Below, piece after piece: positions 11,671-59,720 of a stretch of 64,000 bases of DNA; position 1 is the stretch's first letter, and each line of letters starts with the position of its first letter. The notes under the pieces were generated by a model. It saw only the letters and a list, made by a program, of their open reading frames with translations, made no database searches and was not told the origin of the DNA. The stretch is from Halichondria panicea (lineage: Eukaryota; Porifera; Demospongiae; Suberitida; Halichondriidae), in the NCBI RefSeq assembly GCF_963675165.1, contig NC_087377.1:5952042-6016041 (forward strand). Reading direction: 5' to 3'. Position numbers and translations under genes: made by a program.

Positions 11671-14600
11671 GCACCTTCTTCCTTTCTTGATATATGAAGG
11701 CGACTGAAGCTGCATGGCTTTGATTTCTTGTCAGCGTCTTTCTTTGCTTTCTTTGCTGGTAGCCCAATTGTGGTTAACTCATGACCTCTCGGTCGCCCTC
11801 TCTTTTTCACAATAGGTACGACTTTGATTCCTGAGAATAAGGAGACTCGGTGAGTAAAAATTGCTTACTGTACCCTTGTGAAAATACCAAAATGCGAACT
11901 TCTTAGAAAGGTATTTGATGCCAACCCAGAAAAAAGAGTTAGTAGCACGTGTTTAGAATAATAATTGACGAAATGTATCACAATAAATTAAGATTGTACC
12001 CGGCCTATACTATACATTCCACCATAATTATTCATACATACCCAATGTTCCTTGGGTTGTGTTTACATTCTGTCCTCCAATGACTGGCGATTCACGCGGT
12101 GACTTGATGTCTGGTGCCACAGTGCCAGTCTCTTCAAGTGCAGCACCTTCCTTGCTTTTGACAGAGTGCTGCTCATCATTATCATCATCACCAGACTCTG
12201 AGCTGACTTCACTGACTTCACCTGAACATTATTTGTGAGGAGGTGGTGTGCATTGTTTAGAATATGGGAATACCTGTACATTACATGTCACTCAAGTACA
12301 AATAAAGTGGTATTGTGGGAAGAGGGAGAGCTACAAACAGCATTTTAAGTGGCACCACTTGCAATGAAATAATTATCAGACTCACTTTCATTCAGTTCTG
12401 CGAGCCCAACTTCTTCTCCATTCTTCCAATACAATATTAAATCTTTTACTAGCTTCATTCGCCTGTCAAATTGGTTTTTGGATGCATAGCTTGCAACTGA
12501 CGCCAACTCAGCAGAAAGAATTGACATTTTTCAAAATTTTGGATGTTGGCTTAGTGAGCGGCGATGCTCCTTTCCAGTTGTTAAAACCAATGTACCCTCT
12601 GAAGAATGGGCTGAGAAAATCCGATGTGTAGATCGATAGTAAGCAGTAGTCCATCTTTCGTTACAAAGAACAGCATCATAGGTAGATATACCAAGTTGAG
12701 AGTGCAGTGCGAAAATATGGCGACAAGGCAGGAGCATTGACCTACTGAATATGCACTCGCAACTAGAAATTGTGACGTTTTTTTGTCCCTCTGATGTTTT
12801 CACAATATACACGTCACCTTCCTTTGTGATTTTCGATACCTTACCAGCTAATTCTAGCTGCTTGTGAACAAAATCAGCCGCATAATTTGTCAATAGTCGG
12901 GAGTACATACTTTCAGAACTGTCATCTCGAAATAGGTTAACTTTCACTCGTTGAAAGACCAGAGCAGCCTTATGATCACATTCAGTTCTCAATGCAGTTA
13001 AAATGACGAAAAATCTATCAACAAACTCTTCCAGGGAGCTATGGCGATTTATTACTTGCTTCAACTTTCCATTGATACTCTCCAATCGATTGTTAGTAAA
13101 ATTGAGAAAGTTGCCACAGTTGGACTTCATTCCGAGAACCCATTCATCTCTAATGCTATGCCAATTTTCGTCAAAATATAACACAACTTCCCTTGGAGCA
13201 GATCTCTGGAAGTTAGCATAAAGCTCTCGATAGTGAGCTTCTGTGGTAGCGTAAGCCATTTTCTGTACCATCTCCAAGCAGAGGGACCGTTGCCCAGATG
13301 AAATCCCCATTTTTTTCACAAGTGATCTCTCTTCGTAGGCTTCTCAACGCGTGGAATAAGCATATGAGAACAGAAGCATTTGGTAGTTGCTCCTTAACAA
13401 CATCTCTCTCGCCAATATCTTTGTCTGCCATCACAACTCGTACATTCTTCCAATTTTGATTATGCTGTTTGAAAGCCTCCATCATCCAAGACATGCTCTC
13501 TCTATCTTCTGTCACCAACAAGCAGACTGCCACTATTTCACTTTGACCGTTAGAATCCTCGGTGAGCATTAAATATACAGGCAGCCCTAATTCCAGCAAT
13601 TTGTATGCGGCATCAAGGCATAGAAGCTCAGGGTATGCTTTAAAACATTCTTTCATTTGCTGATCCTGAAAAAATACGCCTTTCAGGTTTTTTTCACTGT
13701 CTGAGAATATTTCCACAGAAGCTCCTATGCCAAAGAGAGACTTGTGTAAGTACATGCAAGCTAGACATTAGATGGGTATTTTAGGGGCAGAGCTGTTATT
13801 CTGAAAGAATCAACATGCACTAATTATAAACGCATATAAATTATACTAATGAATCTTGCACGCCATTAGTATTAGTGACTTACCATAATGCGTCATCAGA
13901 GTATCAACCGTAGCATCTAGGCTGTTTCTGCTTTTCCTGAGTTTGGTAGAGGATGCAATGTTTGTCAGATCTTTTAAAAGAATAACATTCCCTGTCTCTC
14001 GTACTAGTTCTTGCTGCAACAGCTTTTTGTTTACATTCATCCCCAGAAGTTTAGTAGCCTTTTCTTTAGCTTCAGTAGGGAGGCTTCTTTGACGTGGTAG
14101 ATGTTTAAACAGCTCCTACACATTGGAACACACAAATTATGTCTTATCAGTACATGCATGGTGATAAAACTAACCTGAGATACTTCATGGGTATGTTCCG
14201 TCGAGACACTTCCCACTTCAAAAGCAGTGCATTTTCAAGGATATATGAGCCGGACAATCTTGCCTGAAGGTCCTAAAGAAAAAGTGCCAGGAGCGAGAAA
14301 TAAACAAGAAATAAACAGAGGAACACTATGCTCATGATTCATGATTCTACTAGATATAGATACGTACAGACAGATAATAAGATTTTTCGTGTTATAGTCA
14401 GTAATTATGCAACTATCAATGTCAGTCCCCACTACTCCCCCCCCTGTGGAGGACATAGTGGGGATTTGATTCAGTAAGTAACTCGAGGTGCGGGATAGGG
14501 TGGGGAATTTGACTTCCTCATTTCCTCAGTATACAAACTTACAACAGTAATATCTAGAAAATGTAACACATGCAAGTCAAATCCCGGGGTTATTAAGTAC

Positions 14601-18629: not shown

Positions 18630-18951
18630 ATGGAGGAATGGCCTAAAGCGACTGAGGCTCAGTTGAGCCTTGAGTGCTCAGATCAAGCTCTTCAGCAGTT
18701 GTCTGCCGAGATAGCTGGCTATAACAAATACAAGCACATGTTGGGCCTCAGTGATGCTGTGATTAATGAAATCGATCACAATCCAAGCACCTTCTACAGC
18801 ACTCAGGGCAAATTTCATTCTGCTCTAAAAAAGTGGAAATCAAAAAACCTCGATACAAAAACAGCGTCTTACAGTCGATTAGTAGAAATAGTTAAGACTA
18901 CCAATGATGGAGATGCTCGCAGGAAAATTCACAGAGCGTGTGTCAATGCAG
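18630..18951 (+). CDS. Gene 2 exon 1: N-terminal death domain
   Basis: Residues 1-107. An in-frame TAG directly before the ATG fixes the start. YKHMLGLSDAVINEID, FHSALKKWKSKN and TASYSRLVEIV with RRKIHRAC match the death-domain helices 2 to 6. Donor AGGTAAGT, phase 1. Confidence 0.8.
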
Positions 18952-21900
18952 GTAAGTTGATGTCATAATAAGTATTAATTATCAAATGAACAAAGGCTAT
19001 AATTTTTTCATAGCAAAGAATGTCGGCTGTCTGAAATATAATGGAGGTAAGCACATGTGTATAGATACATACCATAATATTGTACTTGTACCATGATGTG
19101 CTCTGACACTAAGTAAGGTACAAATTCCATGTACCTTTCCATGGGTGTACATTTATACCCTAGGGTACATGGCTGTGGTCTCAGCCTGAAGCCCTCCCTC
19201 CACTCTTTAAGGACCAAAGTACCGTTGCGGTAACAAAAATTGTAGAAAGCACAAAAATTAATGTGCAGGTGTTTGAAGTTGTAAATGTGGTTTTGTCAAG
19301 TGCAGCACACGCACACAATATGTACAATTGCTTCTAATCAATAGGTGTTTCATAGTACAAGCCACCTGTACCATGGATATATAATTATGTGTGTATTTTG
19401 TTTACCTCGTGCAGTTGTATGTATTCCCTCGGGTTACAAATCCAATACACCCTTGAATCCATGGTACAACTATTACATGTACATGTATGTACATACACCT
19501 GCACATGCATTCCGCATGATCCTCTATATAATAACAGAGGAGTATCAAACTCCCACGCACATTCCATTCTACATCTAGGAGTAGGACTAAAATTCACTGA
19601 ATACGTCACCCTACTGGAGTTTGCAGAATCTTTGCAACACACCAGTAAAAGCATAGAACGTTTACGCGTTCCGTACATGTATATGGGTTTTGTGTACACA
19701 TTGTAGTATCTGTTTTACTACTTAAATGTGTAAGCACTAGTAAGGAACCAGAGGAGGTACGACAGGCGCGGTGCAGCTCAAGCAATTAGCCTTTGATTGA
19801 GCAATAATTATTATCCGCCCACATCGTATGTTTTTGCTGAGAGTAATCAAAGGCTAATTACTTGAGCTGCACCGCACCTGTCGGACCTCCTCTGGTAAGG
19901 AACTATAGTGCTCAACACTTATTCATGTGTTGCGAAGATACGCAACTCCAGTAACACTTGTAGTTGTGTAAACTGTTCGCCAGAAATAAAATAAAATTTG
20001 GGCTGGAGGACAAACCACAGCATGGACCGTATCATTTTTAACTCTACACATACGCACCCACTTAAAATGTGGTTTGAGAGTGAAATAGTATGACATTACT
20101 TGTACCGTAATGTGGTTTGTACTACAACTGCCAATGAAAGCACCGCGAGTGTGCTGAGGTGTCAAAGCTACCATAAAGCTACTAGTTATTAGCATATATT
20201 TTTATATGCACATTATTACCGTATAGCGCGAAATTTTCGAGGGGCGAAATTTTCGCGGATATCATGGGTTAGCAATCCTACACGAAAATTAAGTCTACGA
20301 AAATTGTTCTTTATTAAAATTATAACATTTAAAGGTGTGGCTTCCGGTAAGCAGTCATTCTGCGAACATTGTGCAACGAAATGCTTTTAGAGGCCAATCC
20401 ACCAAATATAAGTGCCTCGAAAATTTTGCGCTATACGGTTATCATGATGAACATTTTGCATTAATTGCATCCAGGTATAATCCAGACTAAAAGTGTATAG
20501 AAACTCTTACATGTACTTGCACTTTATTGATCCTTGAACAGCTGTAGCAGTCTACACAGACAGACACACATGCAGTGGCGTAGCCAGGGGGTGGCGAAGG
20601 GGGCAAATGCCCCCCCTTTTTCTGGATCTCTACTGCTCTGCTCAGGTTAGTGTAGCTGATTATCTTGCTGAGCACTCCCTTTCTTCCGAATCTTGCTGCA
20701 GTTAGCTAGCTAGTAGGCAAGCAAAATAATTTAGTCCCTAAACTGTGAGCTATTCTGGTCTAAATCTATGGACAGTTCTTGTTCTTTGCTAAACTAGCTT
20801 CTTCTATGCAAATAAAACATCACGCCACACCCAACTAGGTAGAGAAGTAAATTATGCCGTCATAATTAAGAGGCGTGGCTTCTGATCAAAATTTTGGCAC
20901 TGCGCGGCTGGTAAATTTTGTCCCCTCTTCCAAAAAATCCTGGCTACGCTCCTGACATGTATACAAACACACTACTGTATACCTCGCTTGCTCATGCGCA
21001 CCGAGGCATAATAATGCTGTGTCCTAGCAACGAAACATACGATAGCAGGTACATTTAGTGATTTTATTTTGCTGTATGATTGTGTTTACGTGTGATACAT
21101 GTAGATTGAAGCATGCAGGGACAGTTCCTAGATTATTAATCCCTAACCAAATCATCTACTCACCAAACGTATACTGTAATCGAATGTCCTTATAGGCTTA
21201 AAATCCGATGAACCACCACCGTTAGAGCAACTGAGGAGTCATGAGCCTGCCCCAGAAATTCCCAAGCCTCCTGAGGAAGCACCTGACAATAAGGTACAGC
21301 TTGGTGCGGTTTTCTCTGTACATGACATTGTATATGTGATTCCCGTGATTTGCCAAGCCATGAGCTACATGCATGTACATGTATATTGCATAAGTGGACC
21401 CACTTCAGGGCTGAATTCAGGATTTTATGCCAGGGAGGCAAATGAACAATGTAGGAGGGGGAGAAGCCACCCGCGGCATAATATGTTTCATTGCATACTA
21501 AACTAGGGGGATCCGGGGGCATGCTCCCCCGGAAAAAAGAGGGCTGATGCATCCCTGCACTTCTACGACGTGGGGCGGTGTATTACAAGTACATGTAGGC
21601 TGCACACTTCACAACTAGAGCACTAAAGTGCAAACCCTCGGCTGGTGACATGATAATAAAGAAACCAGAAGAGTGATGATGCGGTGCATGTAGCATACAT
21701 GCTAGTCATACATGTATGACTAGCACAGCAACTCAAGAGCAATAAAACTAAACCAGACCAGCTGGAGGCATGCTGAAACATTGAGTGGTACATGTCACAT
21801 GAGACATATACTGTGGACTGGGATCACAGCAAAGAAGCCTGGAGTCTTAGACTTAGAGAGGTATGGCTCCTACCAGGCTGGAGTATATAGGATCCAGAGT

Positions 21901-24900
21901 CAGCCAACAACCAGTCACAATTTTAGCTTTCTACTATCAATTGTTCCAGGTACGGATCACTTCAGCTGCAACTACGTAATCAAGGCCATGTGTAGCTAGC
22001 TACATTGTAGCTGCCAACATGCAAGTTCAAGCTTCTTAGCTTTTGCTCAACAAAGAAGCTTCAACATCAAAATCTGCCACTATTTAAACCAAGATATTGT
22101 TCTGTGAAGGCTATACATGCTGTAAACGCAGCACTGTGGTACCCAGGTGAGTAGATATACCTGTGACAAACAAACAAACAAACAGACCAACGGGCTACTA
22201 TACCCGTGGCCGCCCACGCGCGCCTCGGGTAATAATTATACATCTACATGTATGCCCCATGCATGCATGTTTTCTTATACGTTAACGATATAGATATCAG
22301 GGCTATGTTATACATGTAATAGAATGTTTTGCGAGCATCAAACATATGCGAAATTTGTGAGGGTTGATCGATAACCACACGATCCTTGCCAGAACGCAAT
22401 ACAAAAATAATGTTTAGATAGCAAAAAAGGTCAAATTTTCTGCTGATTAGACTCATTCGCAAAGGTTTTTCACCAGCAAAATATTCTAGATAATAGTTAT
22501 AGGCTGAGTCCAAGGTCTTTATGGGGTTTTGAGAACCGAAGTTTGCTGATTTTCGTGCTTCTCTAGATGCTGAAATGAAGCGACTTCAATCTGCTGGTGT
22601 TGGCTCTGTACGTAAGCAGGCTGAACCACTTTGCCTTGAAGAAGAAGAGGGTTGCTGTGGGAGAAAAAACTGTTAGGAGACCACAGCCCGGACGCTCTTT
22701 TGAACACAATAGTTGTTCATGAATGGACTGTATTTTGCATTGCACAGTGGAGGTGAGCACAGACAACTTCACCATAATCCTTGCCATGCAGATTGAATTT
22801 GTGAGCCTCGAAATGAACAATCATTCCTCAGATACAGGGAAGACGTATCGAAGAATCCTCCCAGAGGATTGAAAGGACGCAAGTTCAAACCCAAAGTAGT
22901 GGTTCACTATTCAAATCCCGAAAATCCTCAGAGATGCTTTGTTGAGCTGTTTAAGAGATACAATAGCTTGTGTCCTCATGATCGCCCGAGCAATGCGTTC
23001 TACCTCTCTCCTCTGACAAAACCTAAACAAGATTGCTGGTTTTCCCGAGCACCTTTGGGACACAACACCTTGAAGAACATGGTGAAGAACATGTGTAAAA
23101 AAGCAGGAATACAAGGTTTCAAAACGAACCATTCGCTCAGAGCCACAACTGCAACCAGGTTGTACTCAAGTGGTGTTGATAAACAACTCGTAATGGAGCG
23201 TATAGGCCATCGCAGTATCGAAGGGATCAGAAGCTACAAGCGAACCTCCTTAGAGCAGCATGAAAACATTTCAGACATCCTACACAGTAAAAAGTCCCTG
23301 TAGCCAGAAACCAATTCACAGAGTCTTATCTGCCATCTCTGCCTCCTCCAATGGCTGCCACCACATTTCCGTGCTCACAAGTGTCGACAAACAACGTAAG
23401 CGCACCTCGCACCTCATTCTCAAGTGATGATCATGCAGGAGTATTCTACATAAGTTCATGCTCAAACATATCTAATCATTCCAACTAACTGTGAACTCTG
23501 AACGTCATTATAATTATCGACATTTACATAATTAGTCAATTCAGTATGATTGTATGTATCATGTAAAAAATGTTAAATGCATGTAGTAAACATATAATGG
23601 ACCTCCATAGAAGACCTCTGAATGTCTGAGAGGTCGAAAGGACCTCCAAGTAACCAATCAGATTGCACCATTTGTGACAAGCATTTTCTAATAACACGGT
23701 ATATCTGTACATGCATGTGCTTGTACATGTAGGTGCCTGAGATTCAGCAATTTTGCTACATTCACGAATCAACCCGACGTCACTTGGTATGGGATGTGAA
23801 GCAAATTTCTGAGCTGAAAGTGCATTTTCTGAACCCTGACATTCTAGAGAAGGAGCACTGGAAGTGTGGGCATGCGGGTCCCCTGACAGTTGACACTATC
23901 CTGGCTTGGGCCACTGTCTGGAATAGCCATGCTGAAAAGTACCCACATATTGCTGATGAGCTAGCAACCGCTGACACAGCTCAAATAAGAGTGTTTTTTA
24001 CCAGCAACAGTAAGTAATTATTTTCAGCGGGGCGATAATTATAAACCCTCCCCAATAGCATCGCCCTGATACAATGTACATCTATCATGCAAGATAAAGA
24101 TTATATATACCGTATTTACTTGATTAAACACCCATCTCGTTTAAACGCCCATGGTGATCAAGCTGTCTTTGTCAATAAACGCCCCTCTTAAATAATCGCC
24201 CATGTATGGGGCGTGGCACTGTGTGTGGAGCTGAATTAGCTTGTGGAACCAGCTAAAACAATGGCAGCATAGAATAAATAGAGGGAGTTATGATGGCAGA
24301 GAGGACACAGAGGGAGTAACGCCACTCCTACGACTTAAGATTGAAGCTGAGAGCTGTAGCAGCAGTCAAAAAGAGCATAATAACTGCTGATGAGCAAGAG
24401 TTTGAAGTATACAAACAATAAATGCCCGTTTTGAATAAGCGCCCATCTCGTTTAAACGCCCCCTCTACAGATGTTGCTAGGACGTTTAATCAAGTAAATA
24501 CATTACATGTACAGTGGAACCTCTTACCCTTAAGGTGACATTCTCAGGTATTTTTTTTGCAGTATATAGCACGGGAAGTCCTTTTATAGTGCTGAAGTCA
24601 CATGCCATAATTAATCGGATTTATTTACTGATTCACTCCGTATCTTAGGTGATTTCCAGTGAATATGAGCCATATTTTACTTCCCCCAGGGAAGTATGGA
24701 ATATGGCTCATATTTTTACTTCCTACAAGCACTATTCAACTTTTAAATCATCTTGACAATTTGTACACAGTAAAATAGCAATATAGCACGCACAAAGTTT
24801 TTGTAGACTAGATGTATGTTGTGCTATTGTCGTATTGACCTGAGCTAGCTAGCAGTCTAAGCTCATGAGGCTTGAAACACTGCAGTTCAATCCTTGCTCT

Positions 24901-27900
24901 GTGTTTCTAGTCAAGGCTGTGGCGCAGAGGTACTGTACTAGGTAGAGGAGTTCGAGTACAGTGCATGCAGTGTTGGTAGACTTGTGCAATGCAAATTCAA
25001 AACAGCAGCTGCTGATATTGGTGGGCGGGTCTGGTCAAAGTTTATGGCTTCCAGTAGAACCTAGCTGCTTGGAGAAGTAGCTAGCTCTCATACTTGACAG
25101 CTGTAGCTGTTCTAACTGCATATTCTGAGGCACAACTGTGAGAGCAAGCTTGACTGTCTCCATTGATGTTCAAATGACTGTTTTGCTGTTTTTTTCAGTA
25201 AATAAATCAGTTGTTGACTGGTTGCCTAGTAATTATGGTTTATAAACAACCTCAGCCTCGGGCTACGCCCTCGGCATTGGTTGGTTATAAGCCATAATTA
25301 CTAGTCAACCAGTCAATAACTATAACATACCACACCTACGTGTATTAGGAGGGTATGCACCCAGTGTATCCATGCTATACTGTGGTTACATATCCCATCA
25401 GCTGCGTCCCAGAGTAACCACACTAGCAGAGGATGTAATAATTATGGGTGCATATAATTATTATCCGTAAGTAGTTGTGGTGTGGTACCGGTGACATAAT
25501 TATTTTCGCGGGTAGCTGCTATTTCTGCGACTGAGAGTAAAATCGATTCGCAAAAATGTGTACTTGCGGATAATTGGAAAATGTAATTAAAACCACTGGC
25601 GAGTAATTAGAAACGTTATGATAATTTCACAACTTGAAGGATTTGGCAGAATACCAGCAAAATATGATAAACAGTGAAATCGCAAACAAATCTACGTGTA
25701 CCTGAAAATATGTCACCTTCTTCAGGTACATGTACCTATAGTACATAAAGCTAACAACTAGCTTGTACATACATGTAGTACGCACATTTTAAATTTATGG
25801 TGAAGCAATTGTTTGTGCCCGGCTGTGTGTATAGCAATTAAGGCTTTGACTTTCTACATGTATGCCTACAGGAAAAGTGATGTCCTGGTCGAAGGTTGGA
25901 ACCGCAGCAACTTGGGAAACTGATAAAAATATGGCGACAATGGTCTTCAACTTGTATGGCATGACAAAAGCTGTCCAAAGAAGCATAGTGATTCATGAAT
26001 TTGGCCATGCCTTGGGACTGGATCACGAGCATCAACGATCCGACTTCTGGGATGTCTTGCAGCCATTCACTATCGGAACAAATCAAATGAAGAACGGAGA
26101 CAGTGGGCGTTGCATATCAGCTTCTGAGGCTGTTTTCAATCTCAGGGAAACGATTGGAAGTGATCGAACTGAATATGACAGCAAGAGCATCATGCATTAC
26201 TGGTAAGTGACTATTCTGTATGCATGTTAGAACACCTCCAAATGGTGCATGCCTGGTCTAAATTTATGTTACCATCTGGCCCACTGCTAAAAAGCTAAAA
26301 GCTCGGCCTATTTTAAGTAATTTACCTACTGGCTGTAATAATACGAAATACAAAAATAAAGATGTATACCGTAGAAACTGGATTATTGGCGCATGCGCTT
26401 TTGGGGTCAATAGCAGAGCTCTATACGCTTACATGTATATTCGAGAATACGCCTATAATGCAGTCATTTCGAGCCCCACCCAGCAACCGGATGTCTCTGT
26501 GATGAGAGCTGACTTGCAAGCTGGCTTGAAAGTGAGCAAGCAAGACAAGCAGGCAACCCTAACTGGATCTGTATCATACTATTATATTGCAGTTCATTTT
26601 GCAAATCATAGCCAGCTAGTAAGTATAACATATTGACCATGAACTTGGAATAAAAGGACCTCATGTACGTCTCACATTCTCTCAGCCATGATCAGACAAG
26701 GTAACAGCATGCCCAGACAGTCCTTCCAGATGGATATTACCAGCTATAATTATAGCTATCGTGCACTGTACAAGCTAACTAGCTCATAGATAAACAAAAT
26801 TAGCTGAATTAATTCTAAAATTTCACTAATAGCCTTCGTATAATTGGAAAAGCGCTTCAATTCAAATAAAAAGCCTACAGTTGACCATGCACTTAAAATA
26901 AAGATACGCTTATAGTCGAGTAAGCGCTAATAATCCAGTTTCTACGGTATCCTATTTCCTCCGTACAGAGATGCTCACGGTGTAATAGTCATTCATGGTG
27001 ATATAATTTATATCACTGATATTTCCCCATTGCGACCAGACATGTACATTTTGTAGATAATTTTCTGCCCTCTTGCACGCTAGGCTGCCATAAAGCTTTA
27101 CAAAATGAAAGCACCGCAGGTACTGATGCCTCGGTGGAGATGCCACGGTGGAGATGCCAAAGCTACATAACAAATAGCTGATGAACATTTTTGCAATAAT
27201 TATTTTGCTGCATGCAAACTCAAAGAGTGGGTAATGATCGACCATGATTGTCGTTAAAAACGATCGATGCCAAAAGTTAAAGTCTAAAATTAATGGCTGC
27301 CATCAGCAGAGCCTTGCAGCTCTCTTCCTCACTCTTGCAGCTACCAATAGCTAGCGTTCTAGTGCAGAGCTAACTACTAAGTAGAGTAGTAACACTCGGT
27401 AAACAAGTTTGGCTACGTGCTCTTCTGAAAAGGCTGCAATGGCATTCCAAGTAAGCAAAACTAGGCATAACTCGAGAATGAAGCATTATTTTGCAAATCC
27501 ACGAATTAAAATTCAAGTAAACATGACTAGAAGCCTATAGAAACTCTTGATTCATCCTTGAGCAGCTGTAGCAGTCTACACAGACACACACACAGACACA
27601 CAAACACACTACCGTATACCTCGCTTGCGCATGCGCACCGAGGCATAAAAACCATTTGCAATGTGAAAAATTTCTTGGATTGACCAGGGAACAGTGTCAA
27701 TTACATTTTGTAAAATTTACTTTAGTTTTATTATGAGCCTTCGTTCTTGATTTATGCCTAGTTTTGTTTGCCATTGCAGCCTTTTTAGAAGAGTGCTTAT
27801 AGCAAAACTTGTCTATGGAGTGTTGCTACTCTACTTAGTAGATACATGACATAATTATACAGTGTACTACGCTAGGTGTTGGTAGCTGCAAGACAGGAAT

Positions 27901-30900
27901 GAGAATGAGCCTTTATCAGTAGGTTTTACATAGGATTGGCAGTGGGTTTGCCCGTGTTTAGCAATATTTCAATTATTTTGACTCATGTTCAAACTGTTCG
28001 GAAAGGCCACATCAAGGAACTGGCTAGACAGATAGTTTATTTAGCCTTTTCTTTCTTTGTATCTCTCATTTCATAATCCATGAACATTTTAATGAATGAA
28101 TATTGTCATTTTAAAAATTGTACTATTTTGACGTTTCACCGCTCTTTGTCTGACTGACTAAGTAAGTAAGTAAGTGAGTAAGTAAGTTTCTTGCCCAGCA
28201 TTTGCTCCAAGTACAGCCATCTCCAGGACATTCTGCACAGGGTTTCCAAACGACTACAACCTGGATTACAAAGCGCTACTTCAGATTTGCGATTGCTTCC
28301 ACGAGGCAGATGACCTCTCAGTCTCTATTTCTCTTACCTAGACAATTCCGCCATCTTTAATGACTCAGCAATTATTGCGTTGTGGCCAAATAATAGATAG
28401 GCGTGGCTAAGAAACCGTGCGCCCACTGCTGTGCTTTTCCAGAGCCTGAGGTGTTGCTTTACTTCACACTGTTCAGCTCTAGCTCCCTTTCTCTGACAGG
28501 CATGCTATATGCACTGGCTAGATATCATGCTCTTAAAATGGCTGTCATTTAACACAAATTCAACATATCAAGCAATTAATAGTATGATATTATCCTATGG
28601 ATACTGAAGATTATCACGAGTCTGTGCCAGTAACTGCACGAGTGCCTGCAAGGCACGAGTGACAGTTACTAGGCACGGACGAGTGATAATCATCAGTATC
28701 CATAGGATAATGCATTTATTGCTTGGCAACCAAAATGCAAGTTGAATCTGCGCATGCGCAACATGCGGTTGCTTTATCAACCAGAAGAATGCGTAGCAAC
28801 AAAATTGATTTCTCCCAGTTGAAGACGAGTTTAAGAGAAAGAAAACAGCTAGAAAGACAAAGAAATAAGACTCTAGAACACCAAGAGAGCTTGCAGAAGG
28901 CTACTTAAAGATTTTGTAGAGAACAGACAAGAAAAAAGACAAGAAAAACGTTGACAACCAGCAACCCGTTTTGAAAATGGATAGTTCTGAAGGATAAACA
29001 GCATGTGCTTGCTTTCTATCATGCTCCAGTGTATCAGAAGAGGAAACATGCACCGCTATAACTGAAGAAAAGTGTGACAACCGTTTTTGAAGCCAAAACG
29101 ACTTTATACAAGCCTGAACAGGCTTATATGGTGGTCCAGTACACTTCTACATGTGCAATACTCCGCTCAAAGCACCCACTTCCAACACTGATGCCTGTTT
29201 GATGCGTTAAATATGAACACTGACAACCTCCTGACCCTCAGCTTCACTGCAAAAATAGCACAGAAGTGATACAGAGCATCAGAAAACAAGAAAAGAGACT
29301 GATAAACATTGCAATGCATGATTATAAGTGTGTAAACTATGTTTTTTCTTGTTCTCTCACTGCTGAAAACGTTTTATTCCAAATAAGAATCACTTCCTAG
29401 TGTGCAATAACAAGTGTGCAATAATACTTCCGGGTGTGCAATATGGAAAAATATCTGCACAGTCGGTGATGAGTCGCTTCCTGTGCAATTTGAATGTAAA
29501 ACGCTGATGTCAGCACTTATTAAAAAGCAATAATACTCATTATTAGTCCAGAGATATTCGAGAAGATATCTGATTAGTTCTGTCTTTTCTTCTTGAACTT
29601 CTGTACTGCCTCTTGACGTTCCACTTATGCATGTCATGATACGTAAATTTATACTTCTGCACTGAAAAACAAAGGGAATCCGACTAGAAAAAGATTTTCA
29701 ATGTGAAAAATTGCTAGGATTGGCCAGGGGAACCACAAAAAAGCGTGGAAACAAGAAATCAGACGAGAGCATAACTCCAATCCGTTACAACGTCATGAAC
29801 ATGTACAATACATAGTATAGACTGTGTTCCAGATCCATCTACCAGCTTCCATCCACCACATCATTCCATGCAGGTCACCAGTACAGTAATTCTACAGTAA
29901 ATCATCATGATTATAATTATGCCTGCACAATGGATGTATAATAAATATATATAAGGATTGGTCTGATTATAGATGTATAATAAATATATATAAGGATTGG
30001 TCATGTACATGTAACTCATAATTTTTTTGATGAAAATAGCAAGGCACCTGTCAGGCGAGCTGTTTTCAGCAGCTATTGAAGTACATGTATGATCGGCATG
30101 CAAACAATATTAATAATTAATTTTGGCTCAAAGTGATTTTGAAATTATTGTAGGTTTGACATGAACTGGTTGCTACCCGCCTACCGTTCTCTTGCCAACA
30201 TTAAAACAAATACACAACTGACTGTTGCTCAGAAGAAAGTACTTGAGGGTGTACATGCTCATGACTGCCGCAAAGGAGCACAATTGTCAAAAAATCCTTC
30301 GATACTGGATTATACGACTCTAAACAAGTCCTATGCAGCTATGTCTCAAGGTGAGCTGCATGTACACTGTAGCATAATTACATGCATGAAGTATTGTTCT
30401 GATCATCTTATAGTCTGAGAATTTCACCAATATTGTTTTGATTTACCACATAATTATGCCTCGAGGCGTAGCCGCACGAGGGATACGGTAAAGCTGACTG
30501 TGTGTGTGTGTGTCTGTGTGTCTGTTCCAGCTGTAACTGCTCAACGGTTGCAATGCGACAAAAGCTAACAGCTTCTATAGGCTTCTAGGCACGTTCTCTT
30601 GGATTTTGATTCGTGGATTTGCAAACTAAAGCTTCTTTCTCGAGTTATGGCTAGTTTGACTCACATTGAAGGCTGTTGCAGTCTCTTCAGAATCTTTCAT
30701 AGCATCATCTGTTCGCACAAACTTTCTATTCAACATAATGAGTTAGCCTTGCACTAAAGCGCTAGCTTTTTGTTAGCTACAATACTCAGAAAATATCTGT
30801 TAAAACAGCTAGCTAGCAATACAGTAGCCATTTGTGAAATTGATCTCTTTGGACCACACCCTTTAATTATTCCTGTGGATGTAATGCGCATGCGCGCTCA

Positions 30901-33900
30901 TTCCCCATGTGTGAGAAATAACATCCAAGATCCAGATCCAGATCCTCCTGGCAGAATCATCTTTGTCTTGAGTGCCTGGTAAGCCACAAAACACTACCAT
31001 ATAACAATATAGATAACAATAATTTTTTTTATGCATTTACACAGGTCTTTTCTTCTTAGATATTATATACACTGAACTACAGATCCTGGAAGAATCAATT
31101 TTCTTCTTTCTTGAGGTCCTAGTAGACCACATAATACAACAATAGATGCATGTAAATAAGTCTTTTCTTCTCAGTGACTTTATATAGATAATAAGCTAAC
31201 TTTAATATAAAATTCATTATAGAAACTAATATAACACTCTAATACTTTTCAGCGAAAGCAAAAACATGGCGAGAGGCATTAGCACAGCGCCAGCTTGAAC
31301 ACTAGTATATACATGTATCTATGTACTTATAATTACATGTTTTAGACTTTAATTAACGTTATTACTACTTTTTTCCGTATACTTGAATCTGTGGCTTATG
31401 CCCTCCATTGCGTTGTCGAGAAGGCTTGCACATGCACTAGTCAGAAGCCAGATCTCAACTGCCTCTACGATGGTCGTATGGTCGGGTTATCTTCCAGTTG
31501 GAAGTACAAAGACTTGCCATAGCCTATACAGGAACCAAGCTCAGACATTCCGACCATTCGACCATTTGTACATGTAGAGGTAGATGAGTACAAAGACTTG
31601 CCATAGCCTATACAGGAACCAAGCTCAGACATTCCGACCATACGACCATTTGTACATGTAGAGGTAGATGAGAGCCTCTTCTGGCTTCTGAGTAGTGTGC
31701 CAGCTTTCTCGCAATGGAGGGCAGCCAGCCACAGCTAGCTAAACTACATATATAGTACAATGTAGATAGTACATTGATAGTACATAGGCGTGGACGGCCA
31801 CGCCTATGGTTACTATCACCCATGCAATAGATACCAGGCCGTATTTTATCAGCCTGGGGCTGAGGCTAGAACATGCAGGAGCCCAGTGGAGTTAGTGGGC
31901 GACATGTCTTCTTAAGTTTTTCAGTAATTTTTATAATCCTTTTTTCCTCAGATCTTCAAAGGACCAGTGACACAAAACTATTAATTAGCTTTCTTTTACT
32001 TCTCGAAGACAACTTACGTATTAAGGGCGTATAAAAAGAAGAGGGCATGCAACTCGCTATGTACTGTATGTACTCAGCATACTTCATATCAGAGGCCAGA
32101 TATAGTTTACAATTATGTGAACAAGTGGGTGGTGTTATGTACGGAGTGGGCGTGTACATAGAGCTGCCTAGCCTAGTTCAGAGGAGGTACGACAACATTA
32201 CGTGTGGGACAATGGACTGTAAATTAACATGCAGCAAAGATGTGGTGGTGGGCGTGGCCTTTATCATTCAGACCACACCTACAATACTATTTACTGCTGT
32301 TGATAGAAATTTCATTGTCCGCGCACGTGATGTTGTCGTACCTCGTCCTCTGAGCCTAGTTTACAATGTAGTACAGAAAAGCATCATGACCAGTAGTCCA
32401 GCCAGACCCCAAGACAACCCCTTTAAGTGTGAAGTTAGTCACTGGACGTATTGTTAAAAAGTACCAGTTCAACTCCTGGTAGATCTATTAATGCAGTGGA
32501 CAGGACTTTCGTATCTTCTTGGTGCTGCTGAATGCACTGCCTTTAATACTGCTAGTACGAGCCATACTGCTGGTTTTATCAACGCTGAATGCTGCAATAA
32601 TTGAGCTAAAGTCTATTTGGAAGTTGTGTGGTCAATTATGGCTTCATTTATGCTTTACGGTTGACAAGTATGCCAGTAACTTCTGCATGGAAAGTGACTG
32701 GTTAAGCTCGATCAGCATAATTATAGTGATAGAAGCGCTTTTTAACAAGAAATCCAATACTATGAAACTTTGAATTTCAGTGCAGTATGACAAAGTTATA
32801 ACACGAACGTCAACAACACTTTCCCCAAAATCCATTCATTGCTATGTCCAATCGGGCACCTTCAGAAGTGTTAGCTGTAGTAGCAGATAAGGTCTCCTTA
32901 TTAATTTTTGTGATGGGATGTAGATCAGGCTCCACCCTCACGTCATGGCATACCTCAGTCAGAACTGAAGCTGTTAAGTCCCTTGTTTCGTTATGCCTAA
33001 TAATAGGGAAAGCCCCTCTTGGGTAAGGGATAGCATGCTCAACCGAGAACCGGGAACAAGTTGTGAGTAAGCCTGCAGGCATCTGGAATGTGATGATACT
33101 AATGTACATGTATCTCTAAACGCACTCTTGTGGAGGTTGAACCCATACTCTTGTAATGATATTAGCATTGAGCCAAGAGCAACTATCTTGTGTTTCCTTT
33201 CGGATGTCCCATTTGTTCTGAAGCTATTGTGATATGGTCTCTATGGGGTAGTTTTGTGATGATGGGGATGGTATCACTTTCTGTAGAGGTTCAGTTACTT
33301 TCCGGGAATCGTCGAAGTAGTGGTTACAGGTTGATGAGTTCAGCATACTAATTCCACCGAGCTCTGCAGGGAGGTCTAAGATTCCTCTCTGTGTTGTTTA
33401 GAGGTGGTTTGCCGGTGAGAGCTAGATGACAGCAAGTTTCTTCTAATGATTTCCTCAATCTCTCCCAAGAGATGGCAGATGTTCAGTACGGTCCTTGTCA
33501 GGAAAGACCATCTACTGCTCCAGCCATGTGTGTATGCTGCGTGTGGTTGTGTGCCGGCCCATTGGCACAGTTTGAGGAGCTCCGCTTTCCAGGTTTCAAG
33601 TTTCGTATGTACAAAATTCTCTACATCTGTAGGTGTCACCAATGCCGATAGGTCTCATACCTGGGCATTTTTCTAGGGCAATGAGACGACATGCTAAGAG
33701 CCTTGGTGGTTAGAGTCTTTCCAATCATACGCTTCAAGGCCCAAAGGCTTTCAGGGCTTAGTAGAACCCTCACTATACGTTCGGTCTCCCGGCCTTTGGG
33801 CTTCTTAAATCACATAGAAACTTCCTAAACAATGTACAAAATGAGGGGCTATTTGAAAGAAATTATGGAATTAAAACAACCGTGAGAGCCTCAAGTCCAA

Positions 33901-35589
33901 ACACACGTACAGGAAGTTTGTTTACATTTACATGTATAATTATGTACGTGTACATGTAGTTGTGTATCGAATGATCATATTCTGTGGTCGTTTTCTTAAT
34001 TCCCATGGAACTTTATCTCCCACCTGCAGCAGTCGCTGGTGAACATGTTCAGCTTCCACCTGTGCTTTCACTGTCTGCTCGGCCTGCTGAACTTGAAGCT
34101 GTTTCATTCGACGGTATATAGAGTGTCATAGAGTATTTGTTAACATGTACGTATAATTATACCGTATAGAGGGTATATTTCGAGGGTATAAATGTTCGTG
34201 GTTTTCGCGGATTAGGCATGAACCGCAAATTTAATATTTCATGCATGCATGCTGCAAAAAAGGCGCTATTCCACGAAAATTAAATCTGTGAAAACCTTTC
34301 TAAAGGCACATCCGCGAAAATTTATACCCTCGAAATATACCCGCTATACGGTAGTTACCACACAAGAATGAGTGCAGTTGAACCTCCCTTACCACCTCCG
34401 AAGAGCAATCTTCGGCTATAAAACGGCCAATTTATGTTCAAATTAGTTATAGTTATTAACTGGGTTGCCTAGTAATGTTGGCTTATTACCAACCAATGCC
34501 GATGGCATAACAGCTGATATTTATAAATACCTATCTATACTAGGAGAATGTACAACATTGTGGAGCGAGCGTGCGCGAATTGTGCATATATCTGGGTTGT
34601 AGATCCAATTAACTCAAAAGAAGTTGGTAAAGGATTATGAGTCTCAAAACCAATTATCGTGCCGGTCCATGACATACATACATACATACAAACAAACATG
34701 CGGACAGAATTGCAACAGTGAAGACTAGGTAGGGACTCGCTTTGCTCACCCCTATAATTAATCACTGTGGTTATATATGTCGTACATACGTTATAGTACA
34801 GTAGAACCTCGATTATCCGGCTTAAAAGTTTATTTTTAATCAATTCGGAAAATGGGCGTGTCCCTGAAATGTGCATGCGCATTGCAGCTGTTACTATGGA
34901 GACAGGTCTGCTTATGTTCGGCGCATGCGCAGAACCATGTGGCACTCCTGTTTATCAATAAAGTTGGTGGATCAAGGCGTGGTTTATCTATTCGATTATC
35001 CGGTTATCCGGCCTGCCTCTGGAACCAAGGTGTATGGAATATGGGCCGTCTGTAAGGGACACGTACTGCATTAAATACCTATCTATATTAATGACTGTGC
35101 TTATGCCCCCCCCCCCATTGACTAAACGTACAATTTATTACATGTTTTATTATGTGGCTCGATCAAAAGTGATCCAAAGTGTCCTTTATCTTGTTCTACT
35201 GTATTAATTTGGCGCTAACATATTATTATTACTGTAACCCTGCATGTATACACTATAATACCGTAACTTACATGTAATTATGTTCGATACCTGACTTTCC
35301 TTCTAATGCAGTACTGACTATGGATCACTTCACTACTATTTTCGAGATACTTAAGAAAACAAATAAGGAATGGTACAACATAGGTCTCGGACTTAATGTG
35401 GAGATGGATGAGCTTGAGAAGTTTGAAGATAATTTTCCAAATGATAACGTTAAGTGTCTGAGAAAGATGTTGACTCGTCGCATACAACAAGGTGGTCTGA
35501 CTCGCTCCCTACTGTGTGAAAGCCTAAGGCGACCTTTAGTGAAGAGAAGTGATGTAGCTGATGAAGTTCAGACTGCAAAGCTCTTGTAG
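18630..35589 (+). CDS. Gene 2: death domain - metzincin protease - death domain, 539 aa, eight exons
   Basis: Exons: 18630-18951, 19014-19046, 21196-21293, 23733-24009, 25872-26202, 30154-30350, 34030-34113, 35312-35589; total 1620 nt, 540 codons with stop, all junction phases consistent (1,1,0,1,2,1,1). Domains: death domain about residues 12-105; Pro-rich linker 119-151; metzincin catalytic domain about 165-400 with zinc site HEFGHALGLDH at 285-295 and Met-turn SIMHY at 349-353; linker 420-447; death domain about 450-535. The zinc site and SIMHY resemble astacin/matrixin-type enzymes. No signal peptide, membrane segment, propeptide or cysteine switch is visible, so a cytosolic, death-fold-recruited protease is inferred. 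The link from exon 6 to exons 7-8 rests on phase and on linker similarity to gene 3; a separate downstream gene remains possible. Introns hold many transposons. Confidence 0.7.
19014..19046 (+). CDS. Gene 2 exon 2: 11-codon linker
   Basis: Acceptor TTTTTTCATAG, donor GGTAAGC, phase 1 both sides; codes KNVGCLKYNG-like linker. Small symmetric linker exons also follow death-domain exons in gene 1 and gene 3. Confidence 0.6.
19749..19894. mobile_element. CAGAGGAGG-family TIR element, 146 bp, in gene 2 intron 2
   Basis: Left end CAGAGGAGGTACGACAGGCG, right end TGTCGGACCTCCTCTG. The arms pair for about 60 bp, so the element is nearly all inverted repeat. Perfect 9-bp duplication GTAAGGAAC at 19740-19748 and 19895-19903. 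Confidence 0.9.
20219..20438. mobile_element. MITE (CCGTATAGCGCGAAAATTTTCG type)
   Basis: CCGTATAGCGCGAAATTTTC at the left, GAAAATTTTGCGCTATACGG at the right. Relatives with the same CGCTATACGG end at 34162-34351, 35829-37242, 38870-39019 and near 16120-16275. Confidence 0.7.
20499..21015 (-). mobile_element. Family A remnant split by a second element
   Basis: The left part (GAACAGCTGTAGCAGTCTAC) and right part (ACTGTATACCTCGCTTGC) join to match 27556-27648. The interruption is the element at 20573-20954. Confidence 0.5.
20573..20954. mobile_element. TIR element with CAGTGGCGTAGCCAGG ends (hAT-like)
   Basis: Left end CAGTGGCGTAGCCAGGGGG, right end AATCCTGGCTACGCTCCTG. ACATG flanks both sides, so the true duplication may have decayed. 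CAGTGGCGTAGCCAGG is a known style of animal hAT terminus; no transposase is present. Confidence 0.6.
21196..21293 (+). CDS. Gene 2 exon 3: proline/glutamate-rich linker
   Basis: Codes a disordered segment with DEPPPLEQL and EIPKPPEEAPD. Acceptor CCTTATAG, donor AAGGTACAG; enters phase 1, leaves phase 0. It joins the death domain to the protease. Confidence 0.6.
21990..22240 (-). repeat. Inverted copy of the 7136-7436 repeat
   Basis: GCTTCAACATCAAAATCTGC and ACCAACGGGCTACTATACCC mirror 7136-7436. Ends CGCGCGCCTCGGGTAATAAT. Confidence 0.5.
22560..23303 (+). pseudogene. Tyrosine recombinase fragment (Crypton / DUF3504-like), in gene 2 intron 3
   Basis: The order of motifs is that of the C-terminal domain in Crypton-derived proteins: AEMKRLQSAGVGSVRKQAEP, then GGEHRQLHHNP (first catalytic Arg box), LKGRKFKPKVVVHY, NHSLRATTATRLYSSGVDK (H-x-x-R box), ERIGHRSIEGIRSYKR (His and catalytic Tyr). 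The last 144 residues (22869-23303) are open and intact. Upstream, TAG near 22675 and TGA near 22790 interrupt the frame. Crypton recombinases integrate circular DNA by tyrosine recombination; this copy is dead and sits in the sense direction between exons 3 and 4 of gene 2. Confidence 0.75.
23733..24009 (+). CDS. Gene 2 exon 4: N-terminal half of metzincin domain
   Basis: Residues 152-243. ELKVHFLNPDILE, VDTILAWATVWNSHAEKYPH and AQIRVFFTSN match the first strands and helix of metzincin catalytic domains (a 'W...W.....F ... ADIRVSF' pattern). Acceptor ACATGTAG, donor AGTAAGT, phase 0 in and 1 out. Confidence 0.7.
24110..24503. mobile_element. MITE with CCGTATTTACTTGATTAAAC ends
   Basis: CCGTATTTACTTGATTAAAC (left) pairs with GTTTAATCAAGTAAATACA (right). 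Interior repeats of TAAACGCCCAT. Probable TA duplication. In gene 2 intron 4. Confidence 0.7.
24663..24713. repeat. Short near-perfect hairpin
   Basis: ATATGAGCCATATTTTACTT pairs with AAGTATGGAATATGGCTCAT around a CCCCCAGGG loop. Confidence 0.6.
25209..25321. mobile_element. Foldback element, 113 bp
   Basis: AGTTGTTGACTGGTTGCCTA pairs with CTAGTCAACCAGTCAATAACT, and pairing extends through most of the element. A half copy lies near 34448-34510. Confidence 0.6.
25872..26202 (+). CDS. Gene 2 exon 5: metzincin zinc site and Met-turn
   Basis: Residues 244-354. MSWSKVGTAA precedes the zinc helix IVIHEFGHALGLDHEHQ, which has all three His ligands, the catalytic Glu and the bend Gly. SKSIMHY follows 56 residues after the third His, as expected for the metzincin Met-turn. 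No frameshift or stop. Donor GGTAAGT, phase 2. Confidence 0.9.
26369..26947. mobile_element. TIR element with TA duplication (Tc1/mariner-like ends)
   Basis: Left end CCGTAGAAACTGGATTATTG, right end TAATCCAGTTTCTACGG, flanked by TA on both sides. No transposase. In gene 2 intron 5. Confidence 0.7.
27098..27648 (-). mobile_element. Family A element, inverted near-full copy
   Basis: AAAGCACCGCAGGTACTGATGCCTCGG at one end region and CGCTTGCGCATGCGCACCGA at the other. This uninterrupted copy is the best reference for the family (about 550 bp). Confidence 0.6.
28591..28709. mobile_element. Foldback element / long hairpin, 119 bp
   Basis: TATCCTATGGATACTGAAGA pairs with TCATCAGTATCCATAGGATA; the inner stem includes CACGAGT.CGTGCC-type pairing. 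Imperfect pairing continues outward to about 28569 and 28729. Either a MITE or a transcribed hairpin precursor. Confidence 0.55.
28710..29860. other. Gene 2 intron sequence without a recognised element
   Basis: A 61-residue basic frame at 28723-28908 (plus, SLRERKQLERQRNKTLEHQE) looks helical but has no splice support. The motif TTTCAATGTGAAAAAT occurs near 27658 and 29697, marking an unclassified repeat. Confidence 0.4.
29933..30002. repeat. Two-copy tandem repeat, period 39
   Basis: GATGTATAATAAATATATAT followed by AAGGATTGGTC occurs twice head to tail. Confidence 0.8.
30154..30350 (+). CDS. Gene 2 exon 6: C-terminal part of protease domain
   Basis: Acceptor TTATTGTAG and phase 2 complete the Trp codon left by exon 5. 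QLTVAQKKVLEGVHAHDCRK fits the final 'LS..D...I..LY..C' helix of astacin-like enzymes. Donor AGGTGAGC, phase 1. It lies 3.95 kb from exon 5. Confidence 0.6.
30454..30790 (+). mobile_element. Family A partial copy
   Basis: Begins GCCTCGAGGCGTAGCCGCAC and has the TGTGTGTGTG...CAGCTGTAACTGCTCAA and TTCTAGGCACGTTCTCTTGG blocks shared with 7437-7650. Confidence 0.5.
31401..31721. mobile_element. Foldback repeat with an internal 84-bp tandem duplication
   Basis: CCCTCCATTGCGTTGTCGAG (left) is mirrored by CTTTCTCGCAATGGAGGG (right), with CAGAAGCCAG/CTGGCTTCTG further in. Inside, an 84-bp unit starting GTACAAAGACTTGCCATAGC is repeated at 31504-31587 and 31588-31671. Confidence 0.65.
32179..32352. mobile_element. 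CAGAGGAGG-family TIR element, 174 bp
   Basis: Left end CAGAGGAGGTACGACAACAT, right end TTGTCGTACCTCGTCCTCTG (two extra bases). Perfect 9-bp duplication AGCCTAGTT at 32170-32178 and 32353-32361. In gene 2 intron 6. Confidence 0.85.
32790..33730 (-). pseudogene. C-terminal fragment of an invertebrate retroelement polyprotein
   Basis: Minus-strand pieces in different frames follow the order of the tail seen in many sponge and cnidarian reverse-transcriptase polyproteins (recalled family resemblance): KLETWKAELLKLCQWAGTQP, HGWSSRWSFLTRTV and IEEIIRRNLL (33376-33642); LHKSAFRDTC (about 33100-33168); VEHAIPYPRGAFPIIRHNET, RDLTASVLTEVCHDVRVEP and ARLDIAMNGFWG (32810-33060). Frameshifts and stops make it dead. 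No reverse transcriptase core is present. It is antisense to gene 2 within intron 6. Confidence 0.6.
34030..34113 (+). CDS. Gene 2 exon 7: linker exon paralogous to gene 3 exon 4
   Basis: Codes VAGEHVQLPPVLS then ARPAELEAVSFD. Gene 3 exon 4 (56298-56387) has the same plan ending RPANLEAVQFE. Acceptor CCACCTGCAG, donor GGTATAT, phase 1 both sides. Confidence 0.65.
34162..34351. mobile_element. MITE with CCGTATAG / CTATACGG ends
   Basis: CCGTATAGAGGGTATATTTC pairs with AAATATACCCGCTATACGG; TA flanks on both sides. In the last intron of gene 2. Confidence 0.75.
34799..35040. mobile_element. Partial Tigger/pogo-like element
   Basis: Left end CAGTAGAACCTCGATTATCC after TA. Inside, CGATTATCCGG recurs but no clean right end is found. 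Same terminal style as 46980-47409. Confidence 0.5.
35312..35589 (+). CDS. Gene 2 exon 8: C-terminal death domain and stop
   Basis: EWYNIGLGLNVEMDELEKFE, CLRKMLTRRIQQGGLTRSLL and SLRRPLVKRSDVAD are a textbook death domain. The exon is 278 nt, the same length as gene 3's last exon, and is nearly identical to it at the DNA level. A possible ATTAAA signal lies at 35767. Confidence 0.85.
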
Positions 35590-51363: not shown

Positions 51364-51691
51364 ATGTCTCGTATCAGTCTACAGCAGTTGAAGGACAATA
51401 CGGGAGTCACTGACGACCAACTAGCCTCAGTGTGCTCCGATCAACACCTCAAAGAGTTAGCAGAACTTATCGACGACTACCAACAGTTTGCCGTTGCACT
51501 TGAACTAAAGGGATGGAGAATTACGGAGATTAATACGGACTTAGCAATGAATTATGTCATGAAAACTCGCACGGTTTTGAAGCAGTGGAAGAATGAGAAT
51601 GCTTTTGAGGCAACTTATTTGAACTTGTTGAACGCGGTGCTTAGCCTGGGTGAGGGTGTTCTGGCGATCAAGCTCTGTGAGCTTTGCAGAC
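51364..51691 (+). CDS. Gene 3 exon 1: death domain 1
   Basis: QQFAVALELKGWRITEINTD, TRTVLKQWKNENAFEATYLN and GEGVLAIKLCELCR give six-helix death-domain spacing. Donor ACGTGAGT, phase 1. Confidence 0.8.
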
Positions 51692-59373: not shown

Positions 59374-59720
59374 TCAAACATGATATATTGCATCTATCTC
59401 TATCAATACATCACTATAAAGTATCCTATCGCGTCTCAGTATCTGCACAAAGTCTGCAAACTTCCTGGGGAAACTCCTAACCCTGCCCAGTACTGCACTG
59501 TACAACCGACTTCCCTTAGAGTTTCTAGTTTCGTTCAATTCGCTTGTTTCGTCCATAGTGGCTTGAGAGATGAATCCTTCACCATATAGAGCCTGAGCAA
59601 GTGCTTTTGGGTCTTTAGACATGGCGTGGTTGAGCTTCACACTACATCGGACCATTGTGTTGTAGGCATTAGAGCAGTCACATTGGGAGTAGTCATAGTC
59701 ATTGTTGAGTTCGTTCACTA
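59374..59720 (-). CDS. Gene 4 terminal exon: CARD-like domain
   Basis: About 115 codons. L..ALYGEGFIS....D mirrors L..LLWSNGFIT....D in the gene 1 CARD, and the VLGRVRSFPRKFADFVQILR helix pair mirrors VIANKIELQAEKLKQFVTIL. The domain is slightly longer at its N-terminus (DYDYSQCDCSNAY). Confidence 0.7.

Follow-up and report, generated by a model that had tools for sequence, protein, structure and literature searches.

Gene Structure and Public Annotation

We analyzed a 64,000-nucleotide stretch of the genome of the demosponge Halichondria panicea (order Suberitida; NC_087377.1, positions 5,952,042 to 6,016,041), here called the window, in which a first-pass annotation had placed a single gene encoding a metzincin protease flanked by Death domains. 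Translation of the window DNA revealed eight exons joined by GT-AG introns in matching phases, giving 539 codons and a stop. The spliced 539-aa product was identical over its full length to P0001 (LOC135337974 isoform X3, Halichondria panicea), a record that we took as computed annotation. The proposal of one gene with the order Death-protease-Death was thereby borne out, while this presumably computed record contradicts the opposite outcome, in which a distinct gene with its own signal peptide would hold the protease exons. P0001 is one among seven member sequences in its cluster, and therefore further isoforms or near-identical entries exist. The single polypeptide comprises a likely N-terminal Death domain, a linker in which a prosegment cysteine is conserved, a catalytic domain of family M12A, and a C-terminal Death domain, encoded as follows:

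18630-18951 (+): exon 1, start codon and likely N-terminal Death domain, residues 1-107 (translation, splice sites; Pfam; family profile A4; structural model)
19014-19046 (+): exon 2, linker (translation; same in the public protein)
21196-21293 (+): exon 3, proline-rich linker (translation; public protein)
23733-24009 (+): exon 4, N-terminal protease half, preceded by the prosegment cysteine (translation; family profile PrN, E 1.2e-32)
23754-23756 (+): codon of Cys159, candidate cysteine-switch residue (alignment column; 10/10 representatives)
25872-26202 (+): exon 5, catalytic exon (Pfam Astacin, 34.7 bits, cut-off 22.5)
25994-26029 (+): zinc-binding motif HEFGHALGLDHE, residues 285-296 (translation)
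26186-26200 (+): Met-turn SIMHY, residues 349-353 (translation)
30154-30350 (+): exon 6, C-terminal end of the protease (translation; family profile PrT, E 8.0e-27)
34030-34113 (+): exon 7, linker leading to the C-terminal Death domain (translation; 15/27 residues, 56%, identical to the linker exon of a protease-less neighbor)
35312-35589 (+): exon 8, C-terminal Death domain and stop

Catalytic and Death Domains

Both the intact zinc site HEFGHALGLDHE and the SIMHY Met-turn on which the metzincin assignment had relied were confirmed by translation, and the type can now be given as astacin. The catalytic domain displays the HExxHxxGxxHE zinc site, family glutamate included, together with the SxMHY Met-turn, and belongs to M12A as a myroilysin-type astacin. 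The FxGD aspartate switch of canonical animal astacins was not present when residues 108-171 of the translated sequence were read by eye. An alignment disclosed four structural-disulfide cysteine columns filled in all six canonical astacins used from the same sponge (eight loci fetched; L051 had no frame carrying the motif and L056 was partial), whereas no disulfide-type column of the catalytic domain reached 50% among 18 family sequences. Pfam scans of the whole protein gave no match to the caspase family.

Death domains serve as assembly modules in cell-death and immune signaling. The C-terminal domain showed the six helices of the death fold. For the N-terminal domain, the Pfam Death score was 21.9 bits when searched alone, just under the cut-off of 22.6. 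The top PDB match of its family profile (A4) was the Fas death domain (E 0.0039), and comparison with the C-terminal Death profile in hhalign gave E 2.4e-5 and a probability of 75. In the predicted model of the window protein, helices appeared at residues 9-111, with one structural row for this domain at a root-mean-square deviation of 6.0. The earlier proposal of Death domains at both ends is thus supported, the N-terminal one being likely rather than firm.

Prosegment Cysteine

The first-pass annotation had stated that the protein lacks a propeptide; this part has to be withdrawn, as a cysteine-bearing prosegment remains. Upstream of the first catalytic Trp, one alignment column held Cys in 54 of 58 ungapped rows (63 rows in total; next best column 46%), a count inflated in register by the bacterial rows P0073, P0076, P0089, P0094, and P0121, which were aligned by an earlier cysteine while the ICTE-type one is also present. 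The cysteine was found in 29 of the 31 rows that we labeled sponge-like (this label and "bacterial-type" below were assigned by us), the exceptions being P0013 and P0040, the latter with a Cys 11 residues before the Trp. All ten representatives, which were hand-picked, had exactly one Cys 10-45 residues before the Trp, with T, S, Y, M, or F as the next residue, a motif class set after viewing the sequences; shuffled controls averaged 1.16 representatives, and none of 20,000 reached ten. Unspliced genomic copies of exon 4 carried the cysteine clearly in 22 of 26 cases. In the myroilysin zymogen, the Cys at chain position 28 aligns with the equivalent cysteine of the bacterial relative P0087. 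Like myroilysin-type M12A enzymes, the window gene has a cysteine in the prosegment, Cys159. Since the family retains this prosegment, latency need not rest on the Death domains alone.

To place this cysteine in three dimensions, we compared a model of P0004, a paralog with the usual prosegment length, with PDB chains, obtaining 50 rows of which 12 reach the prosegment. Seven pro-MMP-9 rows, despite differing start residues, had a common offset of 51, which carries P0004 Cys-150 to residue 99; Cys-99 is named as the switch residue of pro-MMP-9 in PMC6211011. Two myroilysin rows carry Cys-150 to residue 28, the Cys aligned with P0087, if entry numbering equals the chain count, as the two myroilysin entries suggest. 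With pro-MMP-2 and pro-karilysin, the residues reached are 73 and 25, which we take to be the switch residues Cys-73 and Asp-25 of these proteins. The rows report the first and last aligned residues only, so gaps inside them are possible, and AlphaFold2 may remember pro-MMP structures. With low confidence, then, the modeled prosegment cysteine of P0004 appears to occupy the place of the switch cysteine in pro-MMP-9 and in pro-myroilysin.

Hydropathy and Likely Location

Hydropathy and domain scans stood in for signal-peptide and localization predictors. P0001 had a best N-terminal nine-residue hydropathy of 0.49 and no stretch above 1.08 on the Kyte-Doolittle (KD) scale; by hydropathy there is neither a signal-like start nor a strongly hydrophobic stretch, in agreement with the earlier reading of a protein without a signal peptide. 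No 19-residue stretch above KD 1.6 was present in 11 of the 12 proteins scanned. The missing hydrophobic stretches and the missing disulfide columns fit a reducing compartment, and judged from its sequence the window protein would fit a cytosolic, death-domain-linked protease.

A Protease Family with Exchanged End Domains

A search of the 131-Mb H. panicea genome with the catalytic exon gave 57 matches, 49 of which rank ahead of the first canonical astacin locus; both figures count match rows and not genes, as one gene gives two rows. About 12 of the matches form a tandem array at C1:5.32-5.47 Mb, on the contig of the window gene, and the others lie mainly at C3:1.36-1.46 Mb. Both the zinc site and the Met-turn were kept in 28 of 30 distinct copies read (30 loci fetched). 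Among the array copies and the window copy, the median nonsynonymous (dN) and synonymous (dS) divergences were 0.189 and 0.540, with a median dN/dS of 0.326 over 78 pairs and one pair above 1. This ratio places the enzyme part under purifying selection, and the catalytic residues have been kept by selection across paralogs. The window catalytic exon itself differed from the array copies by dN 0.20-0.29 and dS 0.81-1.52.

The architecture recurs in the paralog L057 (C1:5377000-5385500), where an N-type Death exon, a three-piece protease, and a C-type Death exon span 5.6 kb on a single strand. Identity to the window gene was 25% in the N-type Death domain, 61, 64, and 46% in the protease exons, and 35% in the C-type Death domain; the end domains therefore evolve faster or were exchanged. 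Two further genes at C3:1432000-1441900 have the protease followed by Death; P0007 maps in full to one of them, and the catalytic exons are cut at equivalent places. The same modules are joined in the RefSeq-type proteins P0003, P0004, P0006, and P0007.

Exchange is visible in P0002, in which the Death domain most like window exon 1 (52%) forms the last exon (C1:5336992-5337318) while the CARD-like first exon scores 17.8 bits against a cut-off of 23.9. In P0011 (LOC135347766), a single protein joins a protease of the family type to Mob1/phocein (E 1.1e-42) and shows SAM_2 at 13.6 bits, below the cut-off of 20.5. Read by eye, P0007, P0008, P0009, P0010, P0040, and P0122 bear SAM-like, Ubl-like, or TRADD-N-like domains, for which Pfam gave no or sub-threshold matches. 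The end domains have been swapped within this sponge protease family. The earlier statement that no described family has the Death-protease-Death order holds for the open-licence texts, in which we found none, but has to be narrowed, as the order is one arrangement within the sponge family.

Two side observations concern these domains. P0122 (763 aa) and P0035 share a front half and the protease and differ in their C-terminal halves, as if alternatively spliced; P0122, the longer, carries extra, unassigned domains. In addition, Death domains have expanded greatly on the contig of the window gene: C1:0.05-2.6 Mb holds dozens of relatives of the exon-1 Death domain, many of them in pairs spaced 0.7-0.9 kb.

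Relatives Outside H. panicea

A profile search passed 3558 proteins, of which the best 120 were listed. Named rows among these came from H. panicea, Geodia barretti (order Tetractinellida), bacteria, and fungi; no animal other than the two sponges was named among the best 120 of 3558, which is not evidence of absence. Proteins of Geodia barretti and H. panicea, with others, formed a clade of 18 sequences (support 0.961 in the first tree; ultrafast bootstrap, UFBoot, 98 in IQ-TREE), nested among bacterial-type sequences in the first tree. The canonical astacins fell on a long separate branch (UFBoot 100). Both the first tree and the IQ-TREE analysis suggest gene transfer from bacteria, but a tree joining the sponge-like clade to the canonical sponge astacins was not rejected by the approximately unbiased (AU) test (p 0.379), so such an origin is no more than a candidate.

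The C-terminal regions of P0012 (Geodia), P0013, P0014, P0035, and P0040 aligned with the Death set in a joint alignment. Pfam support for these five regions was weak or absent: that of P0014 matched Death (E 0.0095), and P0012, P0035, and P0040, whose death-fold reading rests on the joint alignment, gave no match. In P0013, P0035, and P0040, the protease and the C-terminal domain are read in one uninterrupted frame.

Proposed Mechanism and Alternatives

We propose that the window protein is an intracellular zymogen metalloprotease, recruited and perhaps activated through death-fold assembly. The protein would reside in the cytosol with its prosegment cysteine holding the catalytic zinc. An upstream death-fold assembly would gather several molecules via the N-terminal Death domain, and proximity would allow one molecule to cut another between the cysteine and the catalytic domain. 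As the prosegment lies between adaptor and enzyme, such a cut would shed the N-terminal domain together with the prosegment, as in procaspases. The active protease would keep its C-terminal Death domain, which could aim it at a second complex. As a whole, this scheme is one we lean towards only mildly, with location, assembly, activity, and expression all inferred. The first-pass proposal of a cytosolic protease activated or targeted by Death-domain assembly is partly supported: the missing signal peptide and disulfides and the purifying selection fit a cytosolic enzyme of this kind, the Death domains need not be the sole source of latency given the prosegment, and activation by death-fold assembly is perhaps the case.

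Several observations weigh against the proposal. In the window gene, the spacing from Cys159 to the first catalytic Trp is 12 residues, the shortest among 28 sponge-like rows (median 29), and the cysteine lies only about four residues before the residue aligned to the mature N-terminus of myroilysin; with the 12-residue spacing, latency in this gene may not be the same as in related genes. Two of the 26 exon-4 genomic copies are without the cysteine and two are ambiguous. Bacterial relatives often have an arginine-glycine cleavage site, which the sponge rows do not conserve. When a conserved cleavage site was looked for, Gly was seen 7-11 residues before the Trp in 12 of the 28 sponge-like rows and in 15 of the 26 others (the latter including P0005, from the same gene as P0004). 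The predicted local distance difference test (pLDDT) score of the prosegment was below 50 in the models of both P0004 and the window protein; in the latter, no structural row covers Cys159 and no docked prosegment pose was seen. The pro-astacin row of P0004 (3lq0, 141 to 1P) leads by simple offset to no nameable switch residue. Finally, P0013 begins in the manner of a signal peptide and lacks the prosegment cysteine, and in an isoform, P0006, a hydrophobic segment (KD 2.47) replaces the N-terminal half of the protease; the exon skipped in P0006 is intact in the L057 DNA.

The short segment between Cys159 and the core, and the model without a docked prosegment, would suit a protease that is always active, the Death domains merely placing it, for example, at engulfed bacteria or inflammasome-like assemblies, with no switch. 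We regard this as unlikely: the cysteine is kept in the window gene and clearly in most genomic exon-4 copies, and an unrestrained cytosolic metalloprotease would need some restraint. The enzyme could instead act as a brake: its Death domains would bring it to death-fold complexes, whose members it would cut to end the signal. Two Death domains per protein, and Death exons of the same type in the neighbor described below as natural partners and substrates, would suit such a role; no result here sets it apart, and we consider it rather improbable. A third view holds that the protein is made in the cytosol, leaves by lysis or unconventional secretion, and acts outside the cell like other astacins, which are described as extracellular in PMC9848320. 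The start of P0013 and the hydrophobic segment of P0006 point that way, but the catalytic domain without disulfide columns and the hydropathy of P0001 and most of the proteins scanned argue against it, making it distinctly improbable.

That a gene predictor joined Death and protease exons of separate genes is conceivable for a public record that is probably a computed model. However, the identical order in L057, the joining of the same modules in P0003, P0004, P0006, and P0007, and the uninterrupted frames of P0013, P0035, and P0040 leave little room for such a chimera, which we hold to be very improbable. A dead or decaying copy without function is hardly credible: the window gene does lie 0.5 Mb from the main array, and the motif is broken in 2 of 30 copies, but the window copy is intact and its dN against the array copies is well below its dS.

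Comparison with Known Systems

Myroilysin from Myroides (M12A; PDB: 5gwd, 5czw, 5zjk) is a secreted bacterial enzyme without Death domains; its prosegment is longer than that of the window gene, and identity was 26% over the aligned part. Initiator procaspases and the paracaspase MALT1, like the window protein, fuse a death-fold domain to a protease zymogen, and by analogy the logic of recruitment and proximity is likely common to them. They are, however, caspase-fold cysteine proteases, unrelated to the zinc metalloprotease found here. To our knowledge, caspases and paracaspases are the animal proteases joined to death-fold domains.

Canonical animal astacins, namely crayfish astacin, meprins, BMP1/tolloid, and those of this sponge, differ from the window protein in being secreted and in having an FxGD aspartate switch and disulfides. 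A review describes animal astacins as extracellular enzymes that use an aspartate switch, and treats myroilysin's cysteine switch as bacterial (PMC9848320). The nearest published theme is that of bacterial effector proteins with Death-like domains and the TRADD-N proteins of Amphimedon, which likewise pair adaptors of the Death superfamily with interchangeable effector enzymes and are lineage-expanded; the excerpts of this source name caspase and trypsin effectors for the bacterial systems, mention no metalloproteases other than the inactive zincin-like domains of a bacterial system, and, for the 357 TRADD-N proteins of Amphimedon, name caspase, PNPase, and HD as enzymatic effectors (PMC8195603). 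In searches of open-licence full texts in PubMed Central, we found no description of this arrangement in sponges or cnidarians, whether of Death with astacin or with a metalloprotease, nor of an "intracellular astacin".

Tentatively, and with some doubt, we suggest that sponges possess a second class of death-fold proteases beside caspases: cytosolic cysteine-switch metalloproteases with swappable Death, CARD-like, or other adaptors, activated on being concentrated in immune or death-fold assemblies. If true, an animal lineage converged on the caspase logic using a metzincin, and the astacin cysteine switch, considered a bacterial peculiarity, works inside animal cells. With a metalloprotease in this position, the assembly logic would prove transferable to an enzyme unrelated to caspases, and early animal immunity would gain a protease insensitive to caspase inhibitors. 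The sponge family would be an animal astacin branch with the cysteine, bearing on the view expressed in PMC9848320.

The Protease-Less Neighbor and Window Surroundings

About 21 kb downstream of exon 8, a closely similar exon ends a set of exons without a protease:

51364-51690 (+): N-type Death exon (family profile, Pfam scans; grouping into one gene inferred)
55858-56163 (+): second N-type Death exon (family profile, Pfam scans)
56485-56763 (+): C-type Death exon (80/92 residues identical to exon 8)

The C-type exon matches exon 8 at 87% of protein residues and 89% of DNA over 290 columns. With the two N-type Death exons and an exon-7-like linker, the exons at 51364-56763 (+) look like one gene, a candidate partner or competitor of the window protein. 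A plausible history would have protease exons of the array placed between Death exons of the neighbor's type.

Upstream of the protease gene, two further Death exons lie at window positions 5756-7072 (+), with Pfam scores of 27.0 (cut-off 22.6) and 19.6 bits. A frame at 59377-59778 (-) is CARD-like by eye, with no Pfam match. Intron 3 contains, at 22797-23303 (+), what is probably the remnant of a mobile element: a tyrosine-recombinase-like frame matching DUF3504 (E 1.4e-17) and Phage_integrase (E 2.3e-12). ZSWIM/MULE transposase-like frames occupy 12534-13767 (-), matching ZSWIM1-3 RNaseH-like (E 8.5e-41) and MULE (E 4e-17).
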